Source of the DNA: Comamonas sp.
GTDB lineage: Bacteria > Pseudomonadota > Gammaproteobacteria > Burkholderiales > Burkholderiaceae_C
Assembly (NCBI GenBank): GCA_018384835.1
Contig: JAHAYB010000040.1
Location: 1 to 12,819 of the forward strand
Length of the DNA: 12,819 nucleotides
Direction: 5' to 3'
In this document: positions 1 through 12,819 of the stretch, one piece after another
Position numbering within the stretch: position 1 is the first letter of the stretch
Layout: the number at the start of each line of letters is the position of its first letter
Program-made: the position numbers and the translations under genes
Notes under the pieces: generated by a model
What the model was told of the DNA's origin: nothing
Seen by the model: the letters and a program-made list of their open reading frames with translations, nothing else
The model's database searches: none

Positions 1-2236
1 CCCCCCGCCCCCCGCCCCCGCCCCCGCGCCCGCCGGGGCGCGCCGGCGGGGCGCTGGCCGGGGGGGGCGGGGGCGGGGAGGTGTAGGACAGGGCGGCGGG
101 GTTTTCAGGCAGCAGCGCGGTGTTGCCCGCACTGCCCAAGTTGCCCAGCATGGCCGAGGGTGGCAGGGCTTGCAGGCTTTGCAGTGAGCGAATTTCGCGG
201 TAACGGTCCATGGCTAGGCTGTTGCTACTGTCTGCATCGCGCATGACGATGGGGCGCAGAAAAATCATCAAATTGGTTTTGCTGTGGCTGCGCGTTTGCG
301 ATTTGAACAGGTTGCCCATGATGGGGATGTCGCCCAACAGGGGCACTTTGTCTTGACCCTGGCTGAAGCTGTCTTGCATCAACCCGCCCAGCATGACAAT
401 GGAGCCGTCTTCCACCAGCACGGTCGATTCAATCGAGCGTTTGTTGGTACTGGGGCCGTTGGAGTTGGTGAGGGTGGATTGGTCAATGTTCGAAGCCTCT
501 TGGTTAACCACCAGTTTGATAGTGCCGTTTTCGTTGATGGTGGGTTTGATGCGCAGCATCAGCCCCACGTCTTTGCGCTCTACGGTGGTGAAGGGGTTGA
601 CGGTGCTATTGCCCCCCGTGGTGGCGTAAGAGCCGGTGACAAAGGGCACGTTGTTACCGATGATGATGCGCGCCTCTTGGTTATCCAAGGTCATTAGGTT
701 GGGGCGGCTGAGGATGTTGCTGCTACCGTCTTGCTGCAAGAAGTTAGCCAGCGCCCCCAGGTAATACTGCCCTAGCGCCTTGGGAGCCAGGGCGATATTC
801 ATGCCGCTGCCCAGGCTGTTTAAGGCGCTGGCCATCTGCTGCGTATCGCCCGAGGCCAGCCCAGCCATGATGCCCAGGATATTGCCACCAGCGACGTTGG
901 AGTTGGTGCCAATCGCCCCCAGAGTATTGCCCTTATCGCCCAGGGTGGCCTGCCACTGCACGCCAAACTCGGCCAGTTTGTTGTCTGAGACTTCCACAAT
1001 CATGCTCTCTACCAGCACCTGGGCGCGGCGGCTGTCGAGCTTGTCAATCACGGCGCGTAGCTGGCGGTACAGCGGTGCAGGCGCGGTAATGATGAGGGAG
1101 TTGGTATTGGGGTCGGCCTGCACCTGCCCACCGGTGCTGGGCATGTGCTCCTGCCCTAGGCTTAGAGGGCTGGCTTGCCCCAGACCACCGCCATCGCCGC
1201 CCGAGCTGGCGTTGCTGCTCATGCCGCTGCTACTGGTGGCGCTGCCCGATGCGCCCAAGCTGCTGCGCCCTGCGCCCTCGCTTTGCACGGGGGCAGATTG
1301 CTCTAGCGTGAGCATGGCGGCGCGTAGGGTTTCAGCCAGAGAGACAGCATCGGCATGTTTGAGGTACACCACGTGCAGATTACCAGCGGAAGATTCGTTT
1401 TGAATGGCCGGCTGGTCCAGCCGCTGCACCAGCGAGCGAATTTGCGCCAGCTTGGCCGCATTAGCGGCACGCACAATTAACGTGTTGCTGCGGCTGTCGG
1501 CAATCAGCGTGGAGCGCAGGCCGCCGGCCATGCCCTGCGCGGCTTGGCCTGGGGGAAGGCCGAGGGTGTCGGCATCTATCAGGCGTTGCAGCAGGGGCAC
1601 CATCTCAGAGGCAATGGCGTGCTCTAAGGGGATGATTTGCACATCGCTAAAGCTATCGCGGTCTAGCGCGGCAATCAGGCGGCCAATGCGCCCGATGTTG
1701 TCGGCATAGTCGGTCACTACCAAAGCGTTGTTGCCGGGGTTGATGTTCACCACATTATTCGGGCTAACCAGGGGCTTGACCACATTGAGCACCTGCGCCG
1801 CGCTCTCGTGCTTGAGGGGGAAGATTTGCGTAATAACTTCGCCGCCCGCTGCGCCGGGGTTGATTTTGGTGGAGTGGGTTTTGGCATCCGCCTCGGGCAC
1901 CACTTTAAGGATGTTGCCTGCATCAATCAGCGCAAAGCCATGCAGACGCAGCGCTTGCTGCAATTGCAATAGCGCCTGTTTGGGGGGCAGAGCCTGCTCG
2001 CTCACCAGGGTGAGGCTGCCTTTGACCTTGGGGTCCACCACCACGTTTTTGCCCAGCATGGCTCCTACGCTGATGGCTACGGCATCAATTTGCGCATCGG
2101 TAAAGTTCAGCTCAATCAGGTTCTGGCTGTGGCCAAAGCTGGGGGCGCTAGCGGCTAGGCCGAGCGCCAACGCCCAAGGGCGCAAAACAGTAAACAAGCC
2201 AGAGCGGCGATTGAGGGGGAAAGGGCAGAGCAACAT
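1..2236 (-). CDS. gspD: Type II secretion system secretin GspD (3' end beyond window)
   Basis: GspD forms the outer-membrane ring through which folded proteins leave by type II secretion. I read 745 uninterrupted codons from the ATG at 2236-2234. Residues 1-34 look like a signal peptide (LRPWALALGLAASA core). N0 begins at NLIELNFTDAQ and carries VVVDPKVKGSLTLVS. N1 starts near residue 133 (EVITQIFPLKH, later NNALVVTDYADNI). N2 follows, and N3 carries a long Gly/Ser-rich insert (about 312-368). The secretin core starts near 409 (VESMIVEV). It contains NILSRPNLMTLDNQEARIII, NVPFVTG and, near residues 630-643, VPLLGDIPIMGNLF, the secretin signature, then LMIFLRPIVMRD. The tail after residue 700 is Pro-rich, then Gly-rich, and continues off the left edge. 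An in-frame ATG at 2329 is an alternative start; neither start has a good Shine-Dalgarno. Other gsp genes would lie to the left. Confidence 0.95.
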   Translation of the reverse strand, partial: MLLCPFPLNRRSGLFTVLRPWALALGLAASAPSFGHSQNLIELNFTDAQIDAVAISVGAMLGKNVVVDPKVKGSLTLVSEQALPPKQALLQLQQALRLHGFALIDAGNILKVVPEADAKTHSTKINPGAAGGEVITQIFPLKHESAAQVLNVVKPLVSPNNVVNINPGNNALVVTDYADNIGRIGRLIAALDRDSFSDVQIIPLEHAIASEMVPLLQRLIDADTLGLPPGQAAQGMAGGLRSTLIADSRSNTLIVRAANAAKLAQIRSLVQRLDQPAIQNESSAGNLHVVYLKHADAVSLAETLRAAMLTLEQSAPVQSEGAGRSSLGASGSATSSSGMSSNASSGGDGGGLGQASPLSLGQEHMPSTGGQVQADPNTNSLIITAPAPLYRQLRAVIDKLDSRRAQVLVESMIVEVSDNKLAEFGVQWQATLGDKGNTLGAIGTNSNVAGGNILGIMAGLASGDTQQMASALNSLGSGMNIALAPKALGQYYLGALANFLQQDGSSNILSRPNLMTLDNQEARIIIGNNVPFVTGSYATTGGNSTVNPFTTVERKDVGLMLRIKPTINENGTIKLVVNQEASNIDQSTLTNSNGPSTNKRSIESTVLVEDGSIVMLGGLMQDSFSQGQDKVPLLGDIPIMGNLFKSQTRSHSKTNLMIFLRPIVMRDADSSNSLAMDRYREIRSLQSLQALPPSAMLGNLGSAGNTALLPENPAALSYTSPPPPPPASAPPARPGGRGGGGGGRG

Positions 2237-7043: not shown

Positions 7044-7152
7044 ATGCCTGTGCTTTAGCCGCACAATGTCGGGTTTCTACTAAGTTTTACGCCTAGCCTG
7101 CCCTAGCCCGCTCCTGTGCCAAGATGCACAAGTACGTTGCAGCGCCTTTGTG

Positions 7153-7176
7153 TTTGGATTTGTTTTTGGATTTGTT
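7153..7176 (+). repeat. Perfect 12-base tandem repeat immediately upstream of the GT-C gene
   Basis: TTTGGATTTGTT is repeated twice without mismatch, ending two bases before the ATG at 7179. If the ATG is used, the repeat fills the ribosome-binding region and supplies only weak GGA elements. If the in-frame GTG at 7116 is used, it encodes a duplicated WICF unit. Confidence 0.8.
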
Positions 7177-7178
7177 TC

Positions 7179-9017
7179 ATGCACTTGCCCTCGCCCGCCC
7201 TGGTTTCTCAACAAGCTGTGCGCCGCCTGCCGCGCTGGGTGGTGGTGCTGTTGTGTGCGGCCTATGTGTTGGCAGGCTTTGTAGGCCGCCAGCCTTGGCG
7301 CGAGGCGGATATGGAAACCCTGGGCTTGGCACACGCTATGGCGCTAGGCGACAGCCTGTGGCTTGCCCCCGCCCTGCAAGAAGGGGCGCTGCTGCCCGAA
7401 GCGCCCGGCCTGCTGCATTACTGGCTGGGTGCTGCCGCGCTGTGGCTGGCTCCTAGCAGTTGGCCAGCGGATACGGTGCTGCGCCTGCCGTTTATGGGCT
7501 TGCTGGTGCTGTGTATGTTGGCGCTGTGGTGGGCGGTGTATGGCTTGGCACGTCTGCCCAGCGCCCAGCCGGTGGCTTTTGCTTTTGGCGGGGAAGCCCA
7601 CCCCAAAGACTACGCTTGCACCCTGGCTGATAGCGCTTTGCTGGCCTTGCTGGCCTGCCTGGGGCTAGCGCAAATGGGGCACGAGGCCAGCCATAGCCTG
7701 CTGCAACTGGCGGGGGTGTGCATCAGCCTGTATGCCCTGGGCAATATGGGCTGGCAGCCTAAGCGCACAGCGCTGGCGGCTTTGTTGGGCAGCTTGGTGC
7801 TGGCCTTGTCTGGGGCGGTTTTGCTGGCGCTGGGGCTGGGGGCATTTGCCATCGTGCTGGCGCTTTTTGCTCCGGGAAGCAATCAATGGATTGCCCGCAG
7901 CCAGCGCCATAGCTGGGCGGCTTGGTGGCTGCTGTGCCTGTGCGTGGCCGCTGCAATGGCTCTGCGCCTGGGGCAATGGCCAGAGGCTGCTGCCCTCCTC
8001 CCCACAACCTGGCTGGCTACCGGTACTAGCCGCTTGGCCGATTGGGATAGCCTGGCGCGGCTGCTCACCTGGTTTGCCTGGCCTGCTTGGCCGTTTGCCC
8101 TGTGGACGCTATGGCGCTGGCGTGCGCAACTGCGCCAACTGGGGCAGGGGCGGCATTTGCACCTGCTGATTCCCCTATGGCTGTGGCTGCTGGCTTTGTT
8201 GGCCACCATCTTCTCGCCCGAGCGCGAGCGCTCCCTGCTATTAAGCCTGCCGGCAATTGCTGCCCTGGCGGCCTTTGCCCTGCCCACCTTACAGCGCAGC
8301 CTGAGCGCCTTTATCGACTGGCTGACGCTGATTTTCTTCACCGCCTGCGCCTTGACGGTGTGGGTGGTTTGGCTATCGGTGCAGACCGGCATTCCCGCCA
8401 AACCTGCCGCCAACGTGGCGCGATTGGCCGATGGCTACCAGCCGCCGTTTGAACTGTTGCCCTTTGCCATCGCCCTACTGGCTACGGCGGCTTGGCTGTT
8501 GCTGTTGGCCTGGCGCACCCGCCGCCACCGCGCCGCGCTGTGGAAAAACCTGGCGCTGCCCGCAGGCGGTACGGTGCTGGGCTGGGTGCTGCTAATGACG
8601 CTATGGCTGCCCATGCTGGACTATGGCCGCAGCTACGCCCCCCAGGTGCAGCGCCTGGCCGCGCTACTGCCCGCCCCACCTACCCAGGCTATGCAGCCTA
8701 CTCAACTGAATGGGCAAGATGGGGGCTGCCTCTACACCCTGGGGATGAATGCCGCCCAAGTCAGTGCCCTGGCATGGCATGGCGGTTGGCAGGTACGTGC
8801 TTACCCCGGCACTGGTGAGGCTACAACCGAGGCCACAACCTGCCCCTGGCTAGTGACCCCAGCGGCGGCCTGGGGCGACATCGTCACCACCGAATCCAGC
8901 CAACAAGCCGCCCTGCCTTTAGAACAATGGCAGCAATGGCATTTGCTAGGCGGTGCAACCCGCCCCACTGACCGCCAAGACCACTGGCTGCTGCTACAGC
9001 GGCGCAGTGCTGAATAA
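7179..9017 (+). CDS. GT-C membrane glycosyltransferase, ArnT/PMT-like
   Basis: This 612-residue polytopic inner-membrane protein is rich in Leu/Trp/Ala and has about a dozen hydrophobic segments, the first at about 19-36. After the first segment the periplasmic loop reads WREADMETLGLAHAM...GDSLWLAPALQEGALLPEAPGLLHYWLGA. This aligns in pattern with the ArnT/PMT loop (acidic DxE-type motif, then GDW..P.L.G...EKPPL.YWL). Asp44 and Glu46 are candidate metal/donor-binding residues. ArnT-type enzymes move a sugar from a polyprenyl-phosphate carrier to an acceptor such as lipid A; the substrate here is unknown. A GTG at 7116 would add 21 residues. The gene ends 15 bases before the MATE gene, so the two are probably co-transcribed. 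Identity as a GT-C enzyme is fairly secure; calling it arnT would go too far. Confidence 0.75.
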   Translation: MHLPSPALVSQQAVRRLPRWVVVLLCAAYVLAGFVGRQPWREADMETLGLAHAMALGDSLWLAPALQEGALLPEAPGLLHYWLGAAALWLAPSSWPADTVLRLPFMGLLVLCMLALWWAVYGLARLPSAQPVAFAFGGEAHPKDYACTLADSALLALLACLGLAQMGHEASHSLLQLAGVCISLYALGNMGWQPKRTALAALLGSLVLALSGAVLLALGLGAFAIVLALFAPGSNQWIARSQRHSWAAWWLLCLCVAAAMALRLGQWPEAAALLPTTWLATGTSRLADWDSLARLLTWFAWPAWPFALWTLWRWRAQLRQLGQGRHLHLLIPLWLWLLALLATIFSPERERSLLLSLPAIAALAAFALPTLQRSLSAFIDWLTLIFFTACALTVWVVWLSVQTGIPAKPAANVARLADGYQPPFELLPFAIALLATAAWLLLLAWRTRRHRAALWKNLALPAGGTVLGWVLLMTLWLPMLDYGRSYAPQVQRLAALLPAPPTQAMQPTQLNGQDGGCLYTLGMNAAQVSALAWHGGWQVRAYPGTGEATTEATTCPWLVTPAAAWGDIVTTESSQQAALPLEQWQQWHLLGGATRPTDRQDHWLLLQRRSAE

Positions 9018-9032
9018 AAACACGGCTCCCCC

Positions 9033-10406
9033 ATGACCCCCACCCTACTTACCACCCCCAAGCCCCCTTCTGAACTGGGGATGATTGCCCGCCACGCTGG
9101 CACTGTGCTGGTCGGGCAACTGGCCGTGATGGCCTTTGGTGTGACGGACACCATCGTTGCCGGGCGCTTTTCTGCCGATGCGCTGGCGGCGCTGTCGGTG
9201 GCCTCTGCCGTGTTTATCAGTGTGTTTGTCGCCTTGATGGGGGTGCTGCAAGCGCTGCTGCCTATTTGGTCAGAGCTGCACGGGCGCAAAGACTATTTGG
9301 CACTGGGGCGCTCGGTACGCCAAGCGGTGTATCTGGCGGTGGCAGCTAGCCTGCTGGGCATGGGCTTGCTGCTGTTTCCCGAGCCGCTGCTGCGCTGGAC
9401 GCAAGTGCCTGAGGCCATGCAGGCCAGCGTTCGTGCCTATCTGATGGTGGTGGGCTGGGCGTTGCCATCAGCGCTGTTTTTTCGCCTTTACACCACGTTG
9501 AACCAATCGCTGGGCAAGCCCCAATTGGTCACTTGGATACAGGTGGCCGCCTTGGTGCTGAAAGTGCCGCTGTCTATCTGGATGACTTTTGGCGGCGCGG
9601 GTATGCCTGCCATGGGTGTGGTCGGCTGCGCCTGGGCAACGCTGATTGTGGATTACGCCATTCTGGCGCTAGGCTTGCTGCTGCTGCGCACGCAAAGCCT
9701 CTACCACCCTTTGCAGCTTTGGCAGCACCTGGAAGCGCCAGACTGGGCGCAACTGCGCCAGTTTTTGCGTCTGGGCGTGCCAGCAGGCTTGTCGATTTTG
9801 GTGGAAGTGACTTCGTTCACCCTGGTGGCCTTGTTTGTGGCGCGTCAGGGCACACAGGCAGCAGCTAGCCACCAGATTGCCGCCAACTTGGGCGCTTTGT
9901 GCTACATGCTGCCGCTGTCGCTGGGCATTGCCGTCAGCGCCCGCGCCAGTTGGTGGCGTGGCATGGGGCAGGAGCAACAAGCGCAAGCCACCGCATGGCT
10001 GGGGGTGAAGGCTGCCCTTATCAGCGGTTTGCTGCTATGCGCCGCCCTGCTGCTGGGTCGCCAAGCGCTGCCCGGCATCTACACCACCGATGCCGCCGTT
10101 ATCGCCCTGAGTAGCGCCGTGCTGCTATGGGTGGCGCTGTACCAAGCGGCAGACAGCGTGCAATGCGTGTGCATCTTCCTGCTGCGCAGTTGGCGCGTGA
10201 CCCTCGCCCCGTTGCTGGTGTATTGCGCCTTGCTCTGGGGCGGCGGCCTGGGCGGGGGCTATTGGCTGGCCTATATCCACCCCAGCAGCAGCGCCTACTG
10301 GGCGGGCAACCCTACGCCGTTCTGGCTAGCCAGTGCGGGGGCGTTGACGGTGACTTCTTTGGTATTTGTGGGCTTGCTGCGGCGGGTGTTGCGCGGGCAG
10401 GGGTGA
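9033..10406 (+). CDS. MATE family efflux transporter (NorM-like)
   Basis: The 457-residue product is an inner-membrane antiporter of the multidrug and toxic compound extrusion family, which exports cationic drugs or metabolites in exchange for Na+ or H+. It has two similar halves of six hydrophobic segments. The first half has GTVLVGQLAVMAFGVTDTIV, AALSVASAVFISVFVALMGV and VRAYLMVVGWALPSALFFR. The second half has FLRLGVPAGLSILVEVTSFT, SHQIAANLGALCYMLPLSLG and ASWWRGMGQ. These fit the MatE domains (PF01554), and the length is typical. The ATG at 9033 follows the GT-C stop by 15 bases and lacks a strong Shine-Dalgarno, which suggests coupled translation. The first Rpn-like gene starts 51 bases downstream. 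Confidence 0.92.
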   Translation: MTPTLLTTPKPPSELGMIARHAGTVLVGQLAVMAFGVTDTIVAGRFSADALAALSVASAVFISVFVALMGVLQALLPIWSELHGRKDYLALGRSVRQAVYLAVAASLLGMGLLLFPEPLLRWTQVPEAMQASVRAYLMVVGWALPSALFFRLYTTLNQSLGKPQLVTWIQVAALVLKVPLSIWMTFGGAGMPAMGVVGCAWATLIVDYAILALGLLLLRTQSLYHPLQLWQHLEAPDWAQLRQFLRLGVPAGLSILVEVTSFTLVALFVARQGTQAAASHQIAANLGALCYMLPLSLGIAVSARASWWRGMGQEQQAQATAWLGVKAALISGLLLCAALLLGRQALPGIYTTDAAVIALSSAVLLWVALYQAADSVQCVCIFLLRSWRVTLAPLLVYCALLWGGGLGGGYWLAYIHPSSSAYWAGNPTPFWLASAGALTVTSLVFVGLLRRVLRGQG

Positions 10407-10457
10407 GGTGTGCTGCGCAGTCACGGCAAGCAGACGAACGGGTTCTACAATGGTTCC

Positions 10458-11417
10458 ATGCCCCAAGATGCCGACGCTTCCTACAAACTGCTGTTCTCCG
10501 CACCCGAAGTCGTGCGGGATTTGGTGCTGGGCTTTATTCCCGATGAGTGGCTGCACAGCTTGGACTACAGCACCCTGGAAAAAATGCCAGGCAGCTATGT
10601 GACGGACGATTTCCGCCACCGGGCAGACGATGTGGTGTGGCGGGTGCGAGCCGGGGGCGAATGGGTGTATTTGTATTTGCTGATTGAATTTCAAAGCAAA
10701 AACGACCCCTGGATGGCCGTGCGCATCATGACTTATATGGGCTTGCTGTACCAAGACTTGATACGTGCTAAACAGGTGCTGCCCGGTAAAAAGCTGCCAC
10801 CGGTACTACCCATCGTGCTCTACAACGGCGAGCGCAAATGGACAGCAGCCACCAACATTACCGACCTGATTCCCAAAGCGCCGGGCTTGGTCGCCCAATA
10901 CCTGCCTCAGTTGCAATACCTGCTGATTGAGCACAACCAGTACAGCAGCGAGCAGCTAGGCAAGATTTCCAATCTGGTTGCCGCTATCATGGCTTTTGAG
11001 CAGCCCGAAAGCGAGCAGGCGCTGCTAGACCTGATAGACCAACTACGCCTATGGCTGGCTGACAACCCGGAACTAGAGCGCACCTTTGCCTTCTGGATAA
11101 GAGCGGTACTGCTGCGCCAAAAACGCCAAGACTTGGTACTGCCCAAGGTACAAGATTTAAAGGAGTTAAAAATGACACTCGCCCACCGACTGGATCAATG
11201 GGAGCAGGCTTATGAAGAGCGGGGCTTGCAAAAGGGTTTGCAGAAGGGCTTGCAGAAGGGCGAAAGTGACTTCCTACGCCGCCTGCTTGTGCACCGCTTT
11301 GGCCCCTTGCCTAAAGAGTTGCTTGCCCGTATGAACCAAGCCTCTAGCGAGCAATTAGCGCTTTGGGGCTTGCGCGTACTGGATGCGCGTAGCTTGGATG
11401 AGGTGTTTGGGGCTTAA
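10458..11417 (+). CDS. Rpn/YhgA-like PD-(D/E)XK nuclease, array copy A (RpnL-like)
   Basis: This 319-residue protein belongs to the Rpn family (PF04754, older name transposase_31/YhgA-like), DNA nucleases now described as toxin components of anti-phage systems. The N-terminal nuclease domain (about 1-200) starts DADASYKLLFSAPEVVRDLV. It has RADDVVWRV (candidate catalytic Asp58) and LYLLIEFQSKNDPWMAVRI (Glu77, Gln79 of the D...ExQ core), then LPPVLPIVLYNGERKW. The C-terminal part is helical and charged, with GLQK x3 at about 256-267. The ATG at 10458 is chosen because all three array copies share it; a longer reading from 10410 adds 16 residues. Its own Shine-Dalgarno is poor, unlike the strong internal one at 11159-11165. 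The gene ends eight bases before copy B. No terminal inverted repeats suggest a transposon. Confidence 0.9.
   Translation: MPQDADASYKLLFSAPEVVRDLVLGFIPDEWLHSLDYSTLEKMPGSYVTDDFRHRADDVVWRVRAGGEWVYLYLLIEFQSKNDPWMAVRIMTYMGLLYQDLIRAKQVLPGKKLPPVLPIVLYNGERKWTAATNITDLIPKAPGLVAQYLPQLQYLLIEHNQYSSEQLGKISNLVAAIMAFEQPESEQALLDLIDQLRLWLADNPELERTFAFWIRAVLLRQKRQDLVLPKVQDLKELKMTLAHRLDQWEQAYEERGLQKGLQKGLQKGESDFLRRLLVHRFGPLPKELLARMNQASSEQLALWGLRVLDARSLDEVFGA
11159..11165 (+). promoter_or_regulatory. Internal Shine-Dalgarno of copy A
   Basis: AAAGGAG is followed by the six-base spacer TTAAAA and an ATG at 11172 in the same frame as the large gene. It is far better than the sequence before the large gene's own ATG. 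The same seven bases and spacer recur at 12127-12133 in copy B and 12660-12666 in copy C. Confidence 0.75.
11172..11417 (+). CDS. Internal small ORF of copy A (RpnS-like intragenic antitoxin)
   Basis: An in-frame internal start would give 81 residues, MTLAHRLDQWEQAYEERG, then three GLQK units, then a conserved C-terminal block (LLVHRFGPLPKELL...WGLRVLDARSLDEVFGA). In described Rpn systems the C-terminal domain is translated separately as RpnS. It dimerises through a helix with four-residue repeats of variable number, and it blocks the toxicity of RpnL. The features seen here (strong internal Shine-Dalgarno, ATG, four-residue repeats, conservation in all array copies) match that architecture. 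Separate expression is inferred, not shown. Confidence 0.7.
   Translation: MTLAHRLDQWEQAYEERGLQKGLQKGLQKGESDFLRRLLVHRFGPLPKELLARMNQASSEQLALWGLRVLDARSLDEVFGA
11223..11258 (+). repeat. 12-base coding repeats, copy A (GLQK x3)
   Basis: Three tandem 12-base units encode GLQK-GLQK-GLQK. The units differ from each other only at third codon positions. They lie in the part shared by the large and small products, where repeat number can change by slippage without shifting the frame. Confidence 0.9.
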
Positions 11418-11425
11418 ATAACACC

Positions 11426-12397
11426 ATGCCCCAAGATGCCGATGCTTCCTACAAACTGCTGTTCTCCGCCCCCGAAGTCGTGCGAGATTTGGTGCTGGGC
11501 TTTATCCCCGATGAGTGGCTGCACAGCCTGGACTACAGCACTCTGGAAAAAATGCCCGGCAGCTATGTGACGGACGATTTTCGCCACCGGGCAGACGATG
11601 TAGTGTGGCGAGTACGCGCTGGCGGTGAGTGGGTGTATTTGTATTTGCTGATTGAATTTCAAAGCAAAAACGACCCCTGGATGGCCGTGCGCATCATGAC
11701 CTATGTGGGCTTGCTCTACCAGGACTTGATACGTGCTAAACAGGTGCTGCCCGGTAAAAAGCTGCCACCGGTGCTGCCCATCGTGCTCTACAACGGCGAG
11801 CGCAAATGGACAGCAGCCACCAACATTGCCAACCTGATTCCCAAAGCGCCAGGTTTGGTCGCCCAATACCTGCCCCAGCTGCAATACCTACTGATTGAGC
11901 ACAACCAGTACAGCAGCGAGCAGCTAGGCAAGATTTCCAATCTGGTTGCCGCTATCATGGCTTTTGAGCAGCCCGAAAGTGAGCAAGCGCTGCTAGACCT
12001 GATAGACCAGCTACGCCTGTGGCTGGCCGACAACCCGGAACTAGAGCGCACCTTTGCCTTCTGGATAAGAGCGGTACTACTGCGCCAAAAGCGCCAAGAT
12101 TTGGTGCTGCCCAAGGTACAAGATTTAAAGGAGTTAAAAATGACACTCGCCCACCGACTGGATCAATGGGAGCAGGCTTATGAAGAGCGGGGCTTAAAGA
12201 AGGGTCGCGCCGAAGGCCGCACCGAGGGTCGCGCCGAAGGCGAAAGTGACTTCCTACGCCGCCTACTTGTGCATCGCTTTGGCCCCTTGTCTAAGGAATT
12301 ACTTGCCCGCATGGACCAAGCCTCTAGCGAGCAATTAGCGCTTTGGGGCTTGCGCGTACTGGATGCACGTAGCTTGGATGAGGTGTTTGGGGCTTAA
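11426..12397 (+). CDS. Rpn/YhgA-like PD-(D/E)XK nuclease, array copy B (RpnL-like)
   Basis: This 323-residue paralogue of copy A starts eight bases after its stop. The first 74 residues are identical to copy A although 16 nucleotides differ. Elsewhere the only substitutions I find are MTYV for MTYM, IANL for ITDL, LSKE for LPKE, MDQ for MNQ, and the repeat region. The candidate catalytic Asp58, Glu77 and Gln79 are kept. The four-residue repeats are GLKK-GRAE-GRTE-GRAE (four units) in place of three GLQK units, which accounts for the longer protein. The sequence before the start (AATAACACC) has no Shine-Dalgarno, so translation may depend on re-initiation from copy A. It is probably in one transcript with A and C. 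Confidence 0.9.
   Translation: MPQDADASYKLLFSAPEVVRDLVLGFIPDEWLHSLDYSTLEKMPGSYVTDDFRHRADDVVWRVRAGGEWVYLYLLIEFQSKNDPWMAVRIMTYVGLLYQDLIRAKQVLPGKKLPPVLPIVLYNGERKWTAATNIANLIPKAPGLVAQYLPQLQYLLIEHNQYSSEQLGKISNLVAAIMAFEQPESEQALLDLIDQLRLWLADNPELERTFAFWIRAVLLRQKRQDLVLPKVQDLKELKMTLAHRLDQWEQAYEERGLKKGRAEGRTEGRAEGESDFLRRLLVHRFGPLSKELLARMDQASSEQLALWGLRVLDARSLDEVFGA
12127..12133 (+). promoter_or_regulatory. Internal Shine-Dalgarno of copy B
   Basis: AAAGGAG with the spacer TTAAAA precedes the in-frame ATG at 12140. It sits in an 89-base block identical to copy A (11139-11227 there) that covers the site, the start codon and the first 18 codons of the small ORF. Confidence 0.75.
12140..12397 (+). CDS. Internal small ORF of copy B (RpnS-like)
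   Basis: The internal in-frame start would give an 85-residue C-terminal product. It shares MTLAHRLDQWEQAYEERG and the end block (WGLRVLDARSLDEVFGA) with copy A but has a different repeat helix, GLKK-GRAE-GRTE-GRAE. If the repeats form the dimer interface, as described for RpnS, this protein may not pair with the GLQK-type products of copies A and C. Separate translation is inferred from the ribosome-binding site. Confidence 0.7.
   Translation: MTLAHRLDQWEQAYEERGLKKGRAEGRTEGRAEGESDFLRRLLVHRFGPLSKELLARMDQASSEQLALWGLRVLDARSLDEVFGA
12191..12238 (+). repeat. 12-base coding repeats, copy B (GLKK, then GRAE/GRTE/GRAE)
   Basis: Four 12-base units encode GLKK-GRAE-GRTE-GRAE. The last three are Arg/Glu type and unrelated in codons to the Leu/Gln/Lys units of copies A and C, although the flanks are almost the same sequence. 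This points to replacement of the repeat block rather than point mutation. Confidence 0.9.
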
Positions 12398-12659
12398 TAA
12401 CACCATGCCCCAAGACGCTGATGCCTCCTACAAACTGCTGTTCTCCGCCCCCGAAGTCGTGCGGGATTTGGTGCTGGGCTTTATCCCCGAAGCCTGGACT
12501 ACAGCACCCTGGAAAGCAGGCGCTGTTAGACCTGATAGACCAGCTACGCCTCTGGCTGGCCGACAACCCGGAACTAGAGCGCACCTTTGCCTTCTGGATA
12601 AGAGCGGTACTGCTGCGCCAAAAACGCCAAGACTTGGTTCTGCCCAAGGTACAAGATTT

Positions 12660-12666
12660 AAAGGAG
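12660..12666 (+). promoter_or_regulatory. Internal Shine-Dalgarno retained in copy C
   Basis: AAAGGAG plus TTAAAA before the ATG at 12673 is unchanged from copies A and B, although the upstream coding region is destroyed. Confidence 0.75.
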
Positions 12667-12672
12667 TTAAAA

Positions 12673-12819
12673 ATGACACTCGCCCACCGTTTGGATCAAT
12701 GGGAGCAGGCTTATGAAGAGCGGGGTTTACAGAAGGGCTTGCAAAAAGGTCTGCAAAAGGGCGAGAGCGAGGTTTTACGCCGCCAGCTTGTCCATCGTTT
12801 TGGCCCCTTACCTCAGGAG
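12673..12819 (+). CDS. Small ORF of copy C (possible orphan RpnS; 3' end beyond window)
   Basis: The internal ORF is open for 49 codons to the edge: MTLAHRLDQWEQAYEERG, three GLQK units, GESEVLRRQLVHRFGPLPQE. It differs from copy A at DF to EV, L to Q and K to Q in the visible part. Because the nuclease part of copy C is gone, this small ORF could be an antitoxin without its own toxin, possibly acting on the copy A protein, which has the same repeat type. The 3' end is not visible, so completeness is unknown. Confidence 0.65.
   Translation, partial: MTLAHRLDQWEQAYEERGLQKGLQKGLQKGESEVLRRQLVHRFGPLPQE
12724..12759 (+). repeat. 12-base coding repeats, copy C (GLQK x3)
   Basis: Three units encode GLQK-GLQK-GLQK, the same as copy A at protein level but with different synonymous codons (TTA, AAA, CTG). 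Confidence 0.9.

Follow-up and report, generated by a model that had tools for sequence, protein, structure and literature searches.

Can one bacterial locus carry several toxin-antitoxin units side by side, each with the start of its antitoxin placed inside the gene of its toxin? The question is raised by the right end of contig JAHAYB010000040.1 of Comamonas sp. (assembly GCA_018384835.1), where copies of an rpn gene follow one another 51 nt downstream of the gene for a MATE transporter. The window analysed here is this entire contig of 12,819 bp (G000:C156). A sequence-only reading had proposed a tandem array of gene-within-gene units of the RpnL/RpnS kind, which is known from E. coli (RpnA-E and the plasmid-encoded RpnP2) and C. 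difficile (PMC10327210, a study cited by the later papers PMC12707154 and PMC10865869). Our comparisons back this organisation by family, by catalytic residues and by a conserved internal start, and we consider it very probable that the feature is an operon-like RpnL/RpnS toxin-antitoxin array.

Two intact rpn genes and a third, broken copy

The array consists of the following parts, with the support for each in brackets:

10458..11417, + strand: rpn copy 1, full-length RpnL-like, 319 amino acids (PF04754, E 3.9e-31; PF14261, E 3.7e-07; open reading frame (ORF) list)
11159..11165, + strand: internal Shine-Dalgarno (SD) sequence AAAGGAG of copy 1, spacer TTAAAA (sequence)
11172..11417, + strand: predicted RpnS1, 81 amino acids, internal ATG, DUF4351 domain (PF14261, E 4.5e-08; conservation of the start-codon region)
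11223..11258, + strand: four-residue repeats of copy 1, GLQK three times (repeat comparison)
11426..12397, + strand: rpn copy 2, full-length RpnL-like, 323 amino acids (PF04754, E 3e-30; PF14261, E 4e-07; 93.9% DNA identity with copy 1)
12127..12133, + strand: internal SD sequence AAAGGAG of copy 2, spacer TTAAAA (sequence)
12140..12397, + strand: predicted RpnS2, 85 amino acids (internal start and alignment)
12191..12238, + strand: four repeats of copy 2, GLKK GRAE GRTE GRAE (repeat comparison)
12405..12500, + strand: N-terminal remnant of copy 3 with a broken nuclease frame (deletions of 13 and 433 nt)
12660..12666, + strand: internal SD sequence AAAGGAG of copy 3, spacer TTAAAA (sequence)
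12673..12819, + strand: predicted RpnS3, 49 codons open up to the contig end, with GLQK three times at 12724-12759 (alignment, repeats)

Copy 2 starts 8 nt after the stop codon of copy 1, and the start of copy 3 lies 7 nt after the stop codon of copy 2. For copy 1, an in-frame GTG at 10410 would lengthen the protein to 335 amino acids. Where copy 3 can be aligned, its DNA is 91.3% identical to copy 1 and 90.1% to copy 2; relative to both, it carries the two deletions listed above, its N-terminal (nuclease) frame ends after about 28 residues, and the frame of the small protein is the only one still open. Three adjacent Rpn-like genes had been proposed, of which two are intact and the third is a remnant. 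The suggested search with the hidden Markov model of PF04754, the Transposase_31 nuclease domain, likewise divided the copies, since copies 1 and 2 scored 108.7 and 105.8 bits against a cut-off of 21 (with PF14261 also above its curated cut-off), and no Pfam family matched the copy 3 pieces 12405-12716 and 12421-12819. The same two genes reached 51.4 and 51.5 bits with the RpnA model NF007361, below its cut-off of 583, and 34.9 and 33.1 bits with TIGR01784, below its cut-off of 52.1. Copies 1 and 2 are members of the family by Pfam and, by the RpnA model, not orthologues of RpnA.

The PD-(D/E)XK residues of RpnA (D11, D63, E82, Q84 and R94), to which D6, D58, E77, Q79 and R89 of copy 1 correspond in the alignment, are identical in copies 1 and 2 and in a further rpn gene of the same assembly on contig C383. 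In RpnA, all three phenotypes were lost upon the changes D11A, D63A, E82A and Q84K, and the recombination phenotype only upon Q84A and R94A (PMC5350276). A structure model with a mean predicted local distance difference test (pLDDT) score of 79.2 and a predicted template modelling (pTM) score of 0.68 puts Met239, the internal start residue, within a helix spanning residues 234-259. A sequence search against solved structures gave a best match of only E 0.76.

A conserved internal start

The sequence AAAGGAG-TTAAAA-ATG begins at 11159, 12127 and 12660, which confirms the identical internal SD, six-base spacer and ATG (at 11172, 12140 and 12673) noted earlier. Within the window, the + strand has three matches to AAGGAG-N4-9-ATG, exactly at these sites, and the - strand has none. 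At all three internal ATGs the duplex energy between the anti-SD sequence and the 20 upstream bases is -8.2, a value reached by 10 of the 332 ATGs on both strands of the window (8/198 and 2/134). Because the copies are duplicates, these three sites amount to about one observation and are weak evidence by themselves; we therefore rejected them as independent evidence. Poor ribosome-binding sites of the long ORFs, which the sequence-only reading had contrasted with the internal ones, were also rejected as a special signal, since their energies (-3.2, -4.7 and -4.7) are not poor for this contig: of the three neighbouring genes checked, with starts taken from the ORF list, MATE (-1.7) and RNase H (+1.8) have weaker sites and L31 (-5.6) a stronger one.

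The site does have a counterpart in a studied protein. In the alignment, K235-E236-xx-M239 of the window falls on K240-E241-xx-M244 of RpnA from E. coli MG1655, with the internal start in one column and AAGGAG plus a 6-nt spacing in both, and changes of K240, E241 and M244 in RpnA abolish the small protein RpnA-S (PMC10327210).

We next considered codon use around the site in homologous genes. Of 27 loci found, 19 (21 genes or fragments) were used, the partial or remote matches L026, L027 and L029-L034 being omitted. An LKELxM-type motif was present in 13 of these 21 genes or fragments, all 13 of which passed a lenient SD pattern, and was missing from the other eight (L016, L019, L021, L022, L022b, L022c, L023 and L028). 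The codon test, which is conditional on the motif, covered 24 rows, one of which (L018) was set aside owing to a CGG codon. AAG-GAG encoded the Lys-Glu residues ahead of the Met in all 23 scorable genes, against 5.65 expected from the genes' own codon use, whereas other Lys-Glu pairs of the same genes were AAG-GAG in only 2 of 14 cases. The rows are partly related, seven coming from G225 and five from one Lautropia metagenome-assembled genome; a hand-picked, less redundant subset (12 names, 11 scorable) gave 11 of 11 against 2.91 expected. Across 17 genes (a set that omits L020, L021, L022, L023, L025 and L028), the five-codon windows over the internal start took ranks 1-5 of 300 in same-codon conservation, and KELKM scored 0.77 against 0.458 overall. 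Among the three Comamonas genes themselves the internal-start window is 100% same-codon, but several other windows are likewise.

Genes without the LKELxM motif were examined separately, with seven of the eight motif-less rows above re-examined and L028 excluded. In 15 of 15 such genes an ATG at or near the site is preceded by an SD-like stretch that reaches -6.0 or stronger, while none of 52 other in-frame ATGs of motif-less genes reached -6 (0/26 and 0/26); when GTG and TTG codons were counted too, 17 of 230 control codons passed (6/103 and 11/127). The cut-off had been fixed before the control was run, and only passing sites were printed, some genes having extra passing codons nearby. The energies were modest (-6.0 to -7.4) in L016, L019, L021, L022, L022b and L023, either at the position given by the alignment or one codon past it, and ranged from -7.5 to -11.6 in nine further genes from G140, G225 and G266, where sites were placed by their distance from an EFQS/EHQS motif and not by alignment. 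The strongest motif-less site, CAGGAGG at -11.6, is found in all four array copies of G140, and a strong separate start (-10.3) is present in the fragment L022c. Together, these tests support the view that the start of the antitoxin within rpn genes has been kept by selection.

Related arrays and the integrity of the locus

PF04754 was detected in 11 of 300 genomes of the order, the Comamonas genome included, and in at least three of those 11 (G000, G225 and G140) neighbouring copies on one strand start within 2 kb of each other, a lower bound given that scoring was limited to 10 candidates in G225 and G266. The idea that a side-by-side arrangement is unusual was not borne out, for besides these arrays of the same order, PMC10327210 reports rpn arrays that seem to have arisen by tandem direct duplication. 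Compared by description in the text (on SI Fig. S1B of that paper), the published arrays are likewise head-to-tail duplications of one region, and we found no difference in kind. Compared with the E. coli RpnL/RpnS genes, the window has several head-to-tail copies only 7-8 nt apart, known from sequence alone, and relative to RpnA their C-terminal part is longer and of the DUF4351 type.

A comparison is offered by G225, whose genome is one 3.96-Mb contig. Here, four complete rpn genes form two pairs, with 20-nt gaps within the pairs and 892 nt between them; they are 66.6-69.5% identical to copy 2, and AAGGAG-ATG is present in 4/4. Like the window, this array combines the internal AAGGAG-ATG with tight spacing of paired genes and differing repeat numbers (6, 7, 10 and 3 units, counting a trailing GEAx unit that was not counted in the Comamonas copies), and it differs in having more copies, widely spaced pairs and in belonging to another family of the order. 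No two of its genes are separated by more than 4 nonsynonymous changes over 235 codons.

Two other observations concern the same genome. At L070 (300-1200, minus strand), an RpnS-only copy lies directly 3' of a full rpn gene, after a run of short CCCCATG repeats; all that is left of its long frame is the end, along with the internal SD and the small protein. At L065 (about 1600-1950, minus strand), another rpn copy lies beside the four-gene array, degenerate and in fragments. In Oceanospirillum beijerinckii (L022, 1087-5050), a full rpn gene is followed by a stand-alone RpnS-like ORF that has its own strong AGGAGG start, and then by another full rpn gene. In E. coli, rpnE with the downstream ypaA/rpnES (PMC10327210) is a full rpn gene followed by an RpnS-only copy, much like copies 2 and 3 of the window and L070. 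Unlike ypaA, copy 3 retains a nuclease remnant with deletions, ends at the contig border and has repeats that match copy 1 and not its direct neighbour, copy 2.

A further intact rpn gene of the Comamonas assembly lies at 106-1125 of L007 (contig C383). It encodes 339 amino acids with eight four-residue repeats, shares the core of the internal start, and its stop codon overlaps with the start codon (ATG) of a HIT-domain ORF that follows. Its DNA identity is 76%, with the 20-nt core of the internal start unchanged, and its protein shows 80% identity overall, rising to 85% in residues 1-272. We rejected this contig as the other end of the array, given that 105 nt of other sequence precede its rpn gene and that the encoded protein shares 80% identity with copy 2, which points to a separate locus. 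The homologue P0002, on an 8,680-bp contig, is 99% identical to copy 2 over 95%.

Could copy 3, and possibly the order of the array, be an assembly chimera of several rpn genes? The assembly is fragmented (526 contigs, completeness 85.42%, contamination 4.57%), the contig ends inside a repeat, and the gene on C383 shows that similar sequence occurs elsewhere in the same assembly. However, variants peculiar to copy 3 flank its deletions on either side, and comparable arrays together with an RpnS-only copy exist on the single contig of G225. We regard a chimera as unlikely, though it keeps a real share of the probability.

Selection on the nuclease part and divergence of the repeats

Over the 257 codons that precede the repeats, 36 synonymous and 3 nonsynonymous changes separate copies 1 and 2 (synonymous divergence dS 0.235, nonsynonymous divergence dN 0.0051, ratio 0.022), and after the repeats there are 7 synonymous and 2 nonsynonymous changes. 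From these counts it follows that both copies are under purifying selection, unless gene conversion hides decay. The repeat segments of the two copies are, by contrast with the few amino acid changes around them, completely different. The repeats start 17 residues past the internal Met, and their numbers are three, four and three in copies 1 to 3 and eight in the C383 gene, copy 3 repeating GLQK as copy 1 does. Variable four-residue repeats 8-20 residues past the internal Met were an expected trait of RpnL/RpnS genes, and such repeats just past the internal start are described for the known systems as well (PMC10327210). There, RpnC-S with one extra repeat no longer neutralised RpnC, and an equal number restored neutralisation. 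By this rule of repeat number, long protein 1 would be the partner of both small protein 1 and small protein 3, and long protein 2 would pair with small protein 2. The proposed multi-allele cassette is plausible in that the repeats of copies 1 and 2 differ, and fails for copy 3, which has no toxin frame.

A more prosaic possibility is that the array consists of degenerating duplicates, with one working gene and decaying copies that have no combined function. Copy 3 is indeed broken, and the degenerate fragments next to the G225 array fit this picture. The low ratio of 0.022 between copies 1 and 2 before the repeats, together with the 7 synonymous against 2 nonsynonymous changes after them, speaks against it, unless gene conversion from another selected copy masks decay, and we judge such plain degeneration to be quite unlikely.

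Genomic context and function

A relative of the MATE gene next to the array was present in 37/37 genomes of the genus, its own included, while the copy 2 protein had no match at E 1e-3 in 60 other genomes (36 of them congeners). The GC content drops from 61.3% in the contig up to 10406 to 54.8% in the array. Taken together, the lower GC content, the absence from the 60 genomes and the ubiquity of the MATE gene suggest that the array was acquired beside a core gene. A phage origin was rejected (matches in 4/50,697 phage records, in none of which a single place covers more than 80% of the query), as were close plasmid relatives (0/3,726 matching plasmid records reach 60% identity). The contig stops inside copy 3. 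The remaining window ORFs that were scanned encode a GspD-like secretin, an SLT/LysM protein, a hydroxyacylglutathione hydrolase, a methyltransferase, RNase H, a DUF3567 protein, L31, the MATE transporter and a 633-residue protein; the ORF of the latter (7116-9017) lies between the L31 and MATE genes and is without a Pfam, NCBIfam or PADLOC match.

We infer a defence function here from the family only. An alternative is that Rpn proteins are mainly recombination-promoting nucleases or putative transposases, as the family names imply and as is consistent with the increase of RecA-independent recombination upon RpnA overexpression (PMC5350276). Nevertheless, terminal inverted repeats and target-site duplications are lacking and a transposase role has been judged highly unlikely (PMC10327210), and RpnP2 lowers phage plaquing (PMC10327210); a predominant role in recombination is thus, in our view, improbable. 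As for an identity in a defence library, the PADLOC match of copy 1 and of a copy 3 piece was weak and to a 'putative invertase' model only, and was not retained.

Several observations weigh against an RpnL/RpnS defence array. PADLOC gave no match to an Rpn model for the array copies and none for eight neighbouring window ORFs (all those scanned except DUF3567), so that the surroundings do not show a defence island. A scan of 10300-12819 gave no sigma-70-like promoter, with 1.1 expected by chance, in contrast to the internal transcription start that E. coli rpn genes possess (PMC10327210). In a set of six betaproteobacterial sequences, window 234-238 ranked only 67th of 308 in codon conservation and the internal start was not singled out. 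Finally, the contig breaks off within copy 3, which could be an artefact of assembly. That the internal SD and ATG are a mere by-product of a conserved LKELKM peptide, with no separate small protein, is in our view very unlikely. In its favour, the peptide is highly conserved (LKExxM at the site in 113 of the 120 homologues listed out of 2,268 found among 7,995 scored candidates, ELKM in the remaining 7) and the codon conservation of the site in the six-sequence set is unexceptional, but the excess of AAG-GAG at this one Lys-Glu pair, the SD-like stretch kept where the residues differ and the initiation proven at the equivalent site of RpnA (PMC10327210) all argue otherwise.

Discussion

If the array works as its family suggests, each intact copy would produce a long Rpn protein, a PD-(D/E)XK DNA nuclease that would be toxic when free, and, from the internal start, a small C-terminal RpnS that would bind the long protein through the variable repeat helix and block the nuclease. 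The array would have arisen by tandem duplication, after which the nuclease part was presumably held almost constant while the four-residue repeat segment diverged, such that the pairs may be partly insulated from one another. Copy 3 would then have lost its nuclease and retained the antitoxin frame only. Given that copies 2 and 3 begin 7-8 nt past the preceding stop codon and lack a clear SD sequence, translational coupling is possible, and to go by this spacing alone, their long proteins may need ribosomes that come straight from translating the preceding copy.

A more general, and tentative, idea is that an rpn array is a collection of toxin-antitoxin pairs insulated from one another, in which the nuclease stays constant and the repeats diverge so that each RpnS mainly guards its own RpnL. 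Loss of the toxin with the antitoxin kept, as in copy 3 with its copy 1 repeats, would be a regular step in tuning the array, and tight spacing would feed the start of the next toxin from antitoxin translation. We hold this scheme to be possible but rather doubtful. The pattern seen in both arrays, with a near-constant nuclease, copy-specific repeats and toxin-less antitoxin copies, appears to go a little beyond the text of PMC10327210, although we make no claim that it is absent from print.

The class of system has already been described, and the array of this window is a good new example of it. What it may add is twofold. The codon-level support for a selected internal start comes from proteobacteria beyond the published test species. 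In addition, near-identical copies that differ almost only in their repeats would provide, within one locus, a natural set for the idea that repeat number determines specificity.

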